NCBI GenBank assembly: GCA_013697785.1
Contig: JACCWE010000079.1
Location: 1-48,542 of the forward strand
Source of the DNA: Gemmatimonadaceae bacterium
Lineage (GTDB): Bacteria; Gemmatimonadota; Gemmatimonadetes; Gemmatimonadales; Gemmatimonadaceae
DNA length: 48,542 bases
Direction of reading: 5' to 3'
The notes beneath the pieces are model-generated. The model had not been told where the DNA came from. It made no database searches and worked only from the letters and a program-made list of their open reading frames with translations. The number at the start of each line of letters is the position of its first letter. Within the stretch, counting starts at the first letter, position 1. The position numbers and the translations under genes are program-made. This document shows positions 346 to 2,535 of the stretch, piece by piece.

Positions 346-711
346 TCAGGCCGCGACGGTGAGCGCAGCGCGAGCCTTGTCCGCGAGCATCGTGAAGGCG
401 CTCGGATCGCGAACCGCGAGATCCGCGAGAATCTTCCGATCGACCTCGATGCCGGCCTTCTTGAGCCCGTGCATGAAGACGCTGTAGCTCATGTCGTGCT
501 GGTGAGCGGCGGCGTTGATGCGGATGATCCAGAGCTTCCGAAACTCGCGCTTCTTGTTCTTGCGATCGCGATACGCATAGACCCAGCCGCGCTCGACGTT
601 TTCCTTCGCGGCCTTCCAGAGCTTCGAGCGGGCGCCGAATGCTCCGCGCGCCGCCTTCATGATCTGCTTCTTACGCTTCAGTCGTACGACGTTGCTTTTT
701 ACGCGTGGCAT
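346..711 (-). CDS. rplT: 50S ribosomal protein L20
   Basis: A 121-residue protein of normal L20 length. The N-terminus [19 protein letters not shown] is the basic, rRNA-threading extension typical of L20, followed by the conserved [23 protein letters not shown] and [22 protein letters not shown] segments. L20 binds 23S rRNA early in large-subunit assembly, and in several bacteria it also represses its own operon through the mRNA. It follows rpmI by 10 bases in the infC-rpmI-rplT order, so it is presumably on the transcript that starts near 1635 and passes the attenuator upstream of infC. Confidence 0.98.
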
Positions 712-721
712 AGTGGTCTCC

Positions 722-919
722 TTACGATTGCAGGAGGCGCTTCATACGCTTGATGTCGCCCTTGGTCGCGATCAGACCCGGGCGGCGAAGATTGCGCTTC
801 CGCTTCGACGATTTCTTGGTCAGGATGTGGCTCTTGAAGGCCTTGAACCGCTTGACCTTGCCACTGGCTGTGAGCTTGAAGCGCTTCGCAGCGCCCTTGT
901 GCGTCTTCATCTTCGGCAT
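722..919 (-). CDS. rpmI: 50S ribosomal protein L35
   Basis: A 65-residue, very basic protein starting [20 protein letters not shown], the signature N-terminus of bacterial L35. The C-terminal part ([18 protein letters not shown], then DIKRMKRLL) also fits the family. It is a small structural protein of the large ribosomal subunit. It lies 24 bases after infC and 10 bases before rplT, the usual position, and is surely cotranscribed with both. Confidence 0.98.
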
Positions 920-943: not shown

Positions 944-1459
944 CTACTTCGGCGCCAGAATCATTGTCATGTTCTTGCCTTCGAGCTTCGCATCCGCCTC
1001 GATCTTCCCGATGTCGGCGAGCTCCGCGGACACGCGATCGAGCACATCCTTGCCCAGCTCCGGATGCGCGACCTGACGGCCGCGGAACATCATCGTGACT
1101 TTCACCTTGTTCCCTTCCTCGAGGAATCGCCGAGCGTGCCGCGTCTTCGTGGCAAAGTCGTGATCATCGATTCCGGGGCGGTACTTCACCTCTTTCAGGT
1201 GAATGACGTGCTGCTTCTTCTTCGCGACCCGTGCCATCTTCGCCTGCTCGAACTTGAACTTGCCGTAGTCCATGATTCGGACGACCGGCGGCCGAGCGAG
1301 CGGTGCGACTTCCACCAGATCCAACCCTTGTGCTTCTGCCTGAGCGAGCGCGGTGTCCAGCTCGAGAATTCCAAGCTGGCTGCCGTCGGGCGCGATGACG
1401 CGAAGCGGACTAATGCGAATCTGGCGGTTCACGCGGACGCGCTTGGTGCTATCCTGAAT
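944..1459 (-). CDS. infC: Translation initiation factor IF-3 (probable AUU start)
   Basis: IF-3 binds the 30S subunit, prevents premature joining with 50S and checks start codon choice. The family N-terminal motif (KRVRVNRQIRISPLRVI) and DYGKFKFEQ segment are present, as is the C-terminal domain. I place the start at an ATT at 1459: it immediately precedes the conserved region (IQDSTKRVRVN) and has GGAG nine bases upstream, giving 171 aa, the usual length. The in-frame alternatives (TTG at 1483, GTGs at 1498 and 1501, GTG at 1573) lie inside or upstream of an intrinsic terminator, which makes them poor starts. AUU is the known infC start in Escherichia coli, where IF-3 represses its own translation; the same control is inferred here. 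Confidence 0.9.
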   Translation of the reverse strand: MQDSTKRVRVNRQIRISPLRVIAPDGSQLGILELDTALAQAEAQGLDLVEVAPLARPPVVRIMDYGKFKFEQAKMARVAKKKQHVIHLKEVKYRPGIDDHDFATKTRHARRFLEEGNKVKVTMMFRGRQVAHPELGKDVLDRVSAELADIGKIEADAKLEGKNMTMILAPK

Positions 1460-1635
1460 GGGCGATATCTCCGACGAAGACAAAAAAAACGCGGACACCA
1501 CTCCGGAGTCCGCGACGCGCGAAGAGCACCCGCATGCGGGCGCCCATCGAACACTGAGACTCCAACAGCACACCAGGCGCGTGAGCGCGCGGGCCGAAGG
1601 GTGAGAGCGAAGTGACTCGCTCTACTTGATTGTCA
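1460..1635 (-). ncRNA. infC operon leader RNA with transcription attenuator
   Basis: The roughly 175-nt leader between the predicted promoter and infC contains several stem-loops (for example around 1604-1622 and 1527-1545) and ends in an intrinsic terminator. The segment at 1558-1565 (minus strand TTGGAGTC) can pair with 1503-1510 (GACTCCGG), eight pairs including two G-U. That pairing would occupy part of the terminator's 5' arm, so it is a candidate antiterminator. Ribosomal or IF-3 operon leaders controlled by L20 or other signals are known in other bacteria; the ligand here is not evident. Confidence 0.6.
1481..1514 (-). terminator. Intrinsic terminator/attenuator upstream of infC
   Basis: A 7-bp GC-rich stem (minus strand CGCGGAC at 1508-1514 pairing with GTCCGCG at 1490-1496) with an 11-base loop is followed directly by eight T residues (1482-1489). 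It stands about 20 bases before the infC start and after the predicted promoter, so it must be regulated or leaky for the operon to be read. Confidence 0.8.
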
Positions 1636-1641
1636 GGGCGT

Positions 1642-1669
1642 AATTTACGGCTACGGAGCCGTAAGTCAA
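1642..1669 (-). promoter_or_regulatory. Predicted promoter of the infC operon
   Basis: Minus strand -35 TTGACT at 1664-1669, a 16-base spacer and -10 TAAATT at 1642-1647. The spacer contains the inverted repeat TTACGGCT/AGCCGTAA, which could instead be a weak hairpin after the upstream hydrolase gene. Confidence 0.5.
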
Positions 1670-1692
1670 CTCCCGGAGCTCTTCGGCCCGAA

Positions 1693-2535
1693 TCACGGGG
1701 CCAGCCCGTAGCTCTTCCCGTCGTGCGCCAGCCTGTCCCACGCGTGCGTCGCGTCATGCTCGAACAGCAGGAGCCACTCCTCCTTCAATGCCCGGGCGAG
1801 GATCGCGCGCTTCGTTTCCAGTGTCACCAGCGGCTCGACGTCGTAGCCCATGATCCAGGGGAGCGGCAGATGCGCGGCCGTGGGCACGAGGTCGCCCAGG
1901 AAAAAAGCCTTCTCCCCCTTCGACTCGATCAGAATTCCCTGATGAAAGGGAACGTGCCCCGGCGTCGGGATCACCGTGATCCCCGGGACGATTTCCTTCT
2001 CGCCCTCGACGAGGTCGAAGAGCCCGGCCTTCACTATCGGCGCGAAGTTGTGCGGCAGATAGCTCGCCGCCGTCCGCTCGTTCGTATGCGTCGCGTAGTC
2101 CAGCTCCCCCCTCTGTACGACGTAGCGCGCCTTCGCGAACGCAGGGTGAACTGCACCCGCCTCATCGACATACGTGTTGCCGCCGCCGTGATCGAAGTGA
2201 AGATGCGAGTCGATCACGACCTTGATGTCGTCGGTGGTGTGGCCGAGCTTCGCGAGCGCATCCTCGAGCGCCGTCCGCCCGTTCTCGCCGCGATTCTCGA
2301 TACCGTAGATGTCGATGAAACGATCGTTCTCCTTGTTCCCCGCCCCGCAGTCGATGAGAACGAGGCCGCCGTCGTGCTCGACGAGGATGCAGCGCATGCC
2401 GAGCGGAATGCGATTGCGCTCGTCGGCAGGAATACGGCGCTCCCAAAGCGGCTTCGGCACGACGCCGAACATCGCACCGCCATCGAGCTTCTGTCCGCCG
2501 GCCTGCAGTGCATGAATTTTCAGCGAACCGATCAT
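1693..2535 (-). CDS. Metallo-beta-lactamase-fold hydrolase
   Basis: A 280-aa protein of the MBL superfamily. The metal-binding HxHxDH motif is HLHFDH at residues 111-116, with further metal ligands in TPGHVPFHQG and the GDLVPTAAH segment. The domain fills the whole protein, resembling the quorum-quenching lactonase/AttM-like or generic MBL hydrolase groups; the substrate cannot be read from sequence. The start at 2535 (MIGSLKIHALQAGG) was chosen because the family fold begins there and upstream in-frame sequence belongs to the next gene's shadow. It lies 29 bases downstream of the exonuclease gene and was probably cotranscribed with it. Confidence 0.85.
   Translation of the reverse strand: MIGSLKIHALQAGGQKLDGGAMFGVVPKPLWERRIPADERNRIPLGMRCILVEHDGGLVLIDCGAGNKENDRFIDIYGIENRGENGRTALEDALAKLGHTTDDIKVVIDSHLHFDHGGGNTYVDEAGAVHPAFAKARYVVQRGELDYATHTNERTAASYLPHNFAPIVKAGLFDLVEGEKEIVPGITVIPTPGHVPFHQGILIESKGEKAFFLGDLVPTAAHLPLPWIMGYDVEPLVTLETKRAILARALKEEWLLLFEHDATHAWDRLAHDGKSYGLAP

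Follow-up and report, generated by a model that had tools for sequence, protein, structure and literature searches.

What does the structured leader in front of infC sense in Gemmatimonadota? The window analysed here is a 48,542-nt stretch of contig JACCWE010000079.1 from a Gemmatimonadaceae bacterium, in which Pfam searches identify infC, rpmI and rplT as a minus-strand operon directly downstream of a leader of ~150 nt. Our reading, to which we give a probability of roughly 85%, is that this leader is an L20-sensing transcription attenuator; judged from sequence comparison, it probably stops transcription upon accumulation of free L20, which is encoded by the last gene of the operon. The three genes are as follows.

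944–1459, minus strand: infC, IF3 (PF05198 and PF00707)
722–919, minus strand: rpmI, ribosomal protein L35 (PF01632)
346–711, minus strand: rplT, ribosomal protein L20, presumed to be the ligand (PF00453)

The next gene upstream of the leader (1693–2510, minus strand) appears from its translation to encode a metallo-beta-lactamase-fold hydrolase-like protein, and thrS does not adjoin the infC operon in the window, unlike in E. coli.

For comparison, we collected 186 Gemmatimonadota infC loci, all taken by their infC and with some genomes present twice, and computed statistics on a set of 138 leaders with less than 85% identity. Transcription of the leader can be assigned to a promoter with the following hexamers, which are 16 nt apart in the window.

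1664–1669, minus strand: −35 hexamer TTGACT, with TTGAC kept at the same place in relatives
1642–1647, minus strand: −10 hexamer TAAATT, for which the relatives' consensus is TARNTT

A promoter scan of the window found one site versus 0.3 expected in shuffled sequences. Among relatives, with a cut-off of at least 8 of the 12 positions of TTGAC-17-TARNTT, a promoter was found just 5' of the leader in 72% of the 138 loci, versus 1.5% of control stretches and 5% of shuffles, and its distance to the leader is near-constant. The promoter-like pair that the original prediction had placed at 1642–1669 is therefore conserved and, since it is, transcription is predicted to start at about 1635, ahead of the terminator, and not downstream of 1481. 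The elements that follow this start are listed below in the order of transcription.

1624–1627, minus strand: AAGU, the side of the L20-type site with the AA dimer, at the same position as the AAGU 5' of H41 in Gemmatimonadota 23S rRNA
1604–1623, minus strand: hairpin P1, H41-like, 8 bp with loop 1615–1612
1598–1603, minus strand: CACCCU, which supplies the ACC strand of the L20 helix and hardly varies, apart from compensatory changes in the fourth pair
1566–1597, minus strand: P2 region, with an internal loop, closing the L20-type site
1557–1565, minus strand: switching strand UUGGAGUCU, whose partner is either the ACC strand (L20 site) or 1511–1503 (antiterminator)
1524–1545, minus strand: hairpin P3, between both antiterminator strands
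1503–1511, minus strand: antiterminator 3' strand GGACUCCGG, overlapping the terminator 5' arm
1482–1514, minus strand: intrinsic terminator, called in 180 of the 181 parsed leaders of relatives
1469–1472, minus strand: Shine-Dalgarno GGAG
1457–1459, minus strand: predicted infC start codon AUU

The L20 helix consists of the pairs A1602-U1559, C1601-G1560, C1600-G1562 and C1599-G1563, with A1561 bulged. The terminator (−16.0 kcal/mol in the window) has a stem of 1514–1508 with 1496–1490 and upper pairs 1506–1505 with 1499–1498 above a U-U mismatch, followed by a tract of eight U at 1489–1482; a simple terminator scan missed it owing to the loop rule of the scan. An intrinsic terminator had been predicted at 1481–1514, behind a structured leader, and both were recovered, the former as 1514–1482 with its stem and eight U, the latter resolved into P1, P2, P3 and the terminator.

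This architecture is shared across the phylum. The order AAGY - hairpin P1 - CACCY - P2 - RGG(N)GUYC - P3 - terminator precedes infC in about 180 of the 186 loci; it was parsed in 184, of which three mis-registered ones were left out, giving 181 leaders. AAG is present in all parsed leaders, and a recognisable AAG-P1-CACC leader is absent from two of the 186 infC loci (L039 and L168). RNAalifold gave no consensus structure on a MAFFT alignment because gaps shifted the register of P1, and pairs were therefore counted on fixed blocks and on a covariance-model alignment. A perfect P1 of at least 6 bp between AAGN and CRCC was found in 110 of the 138 leaders versus 6 of 2,760 shuffles. In the covariance-model alignment, P1 is 79% paired versus 67.1% in shuffles, with a covariation score of 0.38 versus 0.19 that 0 of 500 shuffles reached. 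The proposed stems do covary, with ~119 double substitutions in P1 on the infC protein tree versus 14 when the partner was slid by one. The ACCY/RGGU helix is instead almost invariant, as expected of a protein site, being paired in at least 99% of leaders with C-G, U-G, U-A or G-C as its fourth pair. The freedom of the P1 sequence to vary while its pairs are kept also bears on leader-peptide attenuation, in which a ribosome on a short leader ORF would set the fold. Attenuators elsewhere use that mechanism, but the aligned leaders show no conserved start codon or frame from AAG to the terminator, and we regard it as very improbable for this leader.

The conserved elements point to the nature of the sensor, which the original prediction lacked. 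The L20 region of 23S rRNA in Gemmatimonadota has the sequence GAAGU-GGCCGCU...AGCGGCC-CGCCGAAG, with H41 between; these sequences came from relatives since the assembly of the window has no 23S gene. The corresponding region of E. coli 23S rRNA reads AAAGU-CAUGG...CCAUG-CACCGAAG, where GGU pairs with ACC. The leader has in common with H40/H41 the series AAGY-helix-CRCC and GGU; its GGU strand is shifted to the 3' side. By this likeness, its 5' half, AAGU - P1 - CACC - P2 - GG(A)GU, is a predicted L20-binding site of the type seen in 23S H40/H41 and in the Firmicutes L20 leader. Two features of the rRNA site, its AA dimer and a run of two G-C pairs, are retained in known L20 leaders (PMC7247131). 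The core of L20 ribosomal-protein leaders (AAG - hairpin - CRCC ... GGU, with the AA dimer and consecutive G-C pairs) is present here, as are a leader terminator with a competing structure and the position before infC-rpmI-rplT. A likeness of GGUGUGCUG to 23S H46 was also considered and rejected, the string being absent from the Gemmatimonadota 23S genes searched and H40/H41 fitting the core better.

The leader is real, conserved and uncatalogued. At gathering scores, Rfam returned no leader match in the window, RF00558 included, and no leader family was found in eight close relatives with the threshold relaxed to E 5, which bears out the earlier view that this is not a described RNA family. 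T-box, riboswitch and leader-peptide readings were discarded in the absence of a match or a conserved ORF. We built a covariance model from 60 leaders, all from Gemmatimonadota. In the genome of the window, the leader is the sole strong match to this model (E 5.5e-7; next 0.32). Among 32 Firmicutes loci the same model gave 20 matches, each upstream of infC and mostly with weak scores; it found no match in family f10, which belongs to another class, and was weak in family f5. Conversely, a member of family f8 scored 33 bits against RF00558, whose gathering threshold is 58.7. Built on Firmicutes of low G+C content, the Rfam model thus misses relatives that share the binding site.

How might such a site control transcription? 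We infer L20 binding, its effect in favouring termination and the order of folding from the arrangement of the strands. With more L20 than free 23S rRNA, the protein would bind the leader and keep GG(A)GU paired to ACCC, so that the terminator 1514–1490 would form and transcription would end before infC. With L20 in short supply, GGAGUCU would pair with the terminator 5' arm GGACUCC across P3, and RNA polymerase would read through. The pairing of 1558–1565 with 1503–1510, overlapping the terminator 5' arm, which had been predicted from the window alone, is exact over 8 bp, and extends to 9 bp if 1557:1511 is included. On folding the window sequence, the terminator state came to −67.4 kcal/mol and the forced antiterminator state to −63.0 kcal/mol; with a gap of 4.4 kcal/mol, both states are comparable. 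Since the terminator state is the stabler on paper, antitermination must be kinetic or assisted.

In a single G+C-rich sequence such a pairing would be insufficient evidence, and its significance comes from its recurrence across the phylum, where GG(N)GUYC, the 3' strand of the L20 helix, is complementary to the terminator 5' arm. In the main motif type, one double substitution, 42 pair-keeping single changes and 11 breaks were counted for the antiterminator. Double changes are few because two further helices draw on its strands; being too few as proof within that type, they were complemented by swapping strands between genomes. Real pairs averaged −11.4 kcal/mol versus −10.0 kcal/mol for swapped ones (z −8.1); with relatedness ignored, not one permutation in 20,000 equalled the real pairs, and z was about −4.1 within each of two motif types. 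Moreover, deep lineages have altered both strands together: the family of the window has GGAGUCC/GGACUCC, while CGGGUUC/GGACCCG, CCGGGUUC/GAGCCCGG and CUCGGGUCG/CGGCCCGAG occur elsewhere in the class. These two lines of evidence argue against a plain terminator behind a structured 5' UTR, where the second pairing would be a by-product of G+C richness and of the conserved terminator. That explanation draws on the many G+C-rich windows that can pair with the arm, and only 40% of leaders have the switching strand as the one strongest partner of the arm, because G+C-rich leaders offer other partners; the weakening upon swapping in every permutation and the joint changes nevertheless make it improbable. 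Equally improbable is that L20 acts on infC translation through the leader, with the terminator merely setting basal read-through. E. coli L20 does repress translation of rpmI-rplT (PMC10931766), but here the Shine-Dalgarno sequence (1472–1469) lies outside both alternative helices, and it is the terminator arm that is conserved as the switching strand's partner. The phylum-wide comparison thus supports, ahead of infC-rpmI-rplT, transcription attenuation with a mutually exclusive antiterminator, as originally predicted.

The infC start codon suggests a second layer of control. Together with a Shine-Dalgarno sequence, the best start is AUU in 50, CUG in 47, AUC in 31 and AUA in 4 of the relatives (132/138), and 98 of the 138 leaders have no in-frame AUG, GUG or UUG after the terminator or the last in-frame stop. 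In E. coli, IF3 rejects starts of this type; translational feedback by IF3 is thus likely, and this second control of infC would be phylum-wide. Such starts, and the first place of infC in the operon, could also suggest that the ligand of the attenuator is IF3 or another factor instead of L20. We consider this unlikely, although marginally less so than the two alternatives weighed above, since the conserved core is a copy of the L20 site found in 23S rRNA and in the Firmicutes leader, and IF3 control needs no structure upstream to account for the start codon.

With L20 as the putative ligand, the closest known system is the L20 leader of Firmicutes (RF00558), the attenuator of B. subtilis infC-rpmI-rplT, which has the same operon, a terminator before infC and rRNA mimicry, and whose elements AAG-hairpin-CRCC...AGG come in the same order as in Gemmatimonadota. 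In B. subtilis, L20 represses this operon by favouring the leader terminator (PMC6097659, PMC10931766). Other systems are more distant. The E. coli rpmI leader, with its pseudoknot and irregular hairpin, likewise has L20 as ligand and mimics 23S rRNA, but its pseudoknot controls rpmI-rplT translation within the operon and there is no terminator switch before infC (PMC10931766). The predicted L20 leader of Deltaproteobacteria (Eckert and Weinberg 2020) keeps the AA dimer plus two adjacent G-C pairs but differs in scaffold and lineage (PMC7247131), and the text of that paper does not mention Gemmatimonadota. The B. subtilis rplJL attenuator, which responds to L10(L12)4, follows the same anti-antiterminator/antiterminator/terminator logic but with another protein, a kink-turn RNA site and another operon (PMC4538822, PMC10931766). 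In the literature searched, we found no description of a ribosomal-protein leader in Gemmatimonadota. Our findings would therefore extend L20 feedback by transcription attenuation, of a kind known from Firmicutes, to these soil bacteria.

Judged from complementarity, the two groups of leaders appear to differ in how the site is coupled to the terminator. In Gemmatimonadota, the terminator arm is matched by the GGU strand (−11.3 kcal/mol) rather than by the ACC strand (−4.5 kcal/mol), whereas in Firmicutes loci the ACC strand is the better match (−9.5 versus −3.8 kcal/mol for the GGU strand); strand swapping on the Firmicutes ACC strand made little difference (−8.65 versus −8.24). The Firmicutes-type wiring, defined in this analysis by the ACC strand being the partner of the terminator arm, does not hold here except in locus L235 of family f8, where the values are −12.1 for the ACC strand and −5.1 kcal/mol for the GGU strand, as in Firmicutes. 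One view of these values, to which we give about even odds, is that one L20 aptamer is used in opposite couplings: its 5' ACC strand would antiterminate in Firmicutes and f8, its 3' GGU strand in other Gemmatimonadota, and L20 binding would free the terminator in both. The sensor would thus have been kept and the output rewired, and separate L20 and IF3 feedback may share the operon. This would offer a natural comparison in which one protein-binding RNA is joined to a terminator via either strand.

Some loci depart from the main layout. The infC leaders of L234 and L235, both of f8, look Firmicutes-like, with AAGCAGAAGCC..GGCUUCUCGCCUG...CAGGU, and leaders of this family look intermediate. Five f10 loci (L237, L240, L241, L243 and L244) have a conserved terminator, AGCGGAU...UCCGCUUUUUUUU, ~80–120 nt before infC, and infC has apparent GUG starts in that family, which perhaps carries another leader type.
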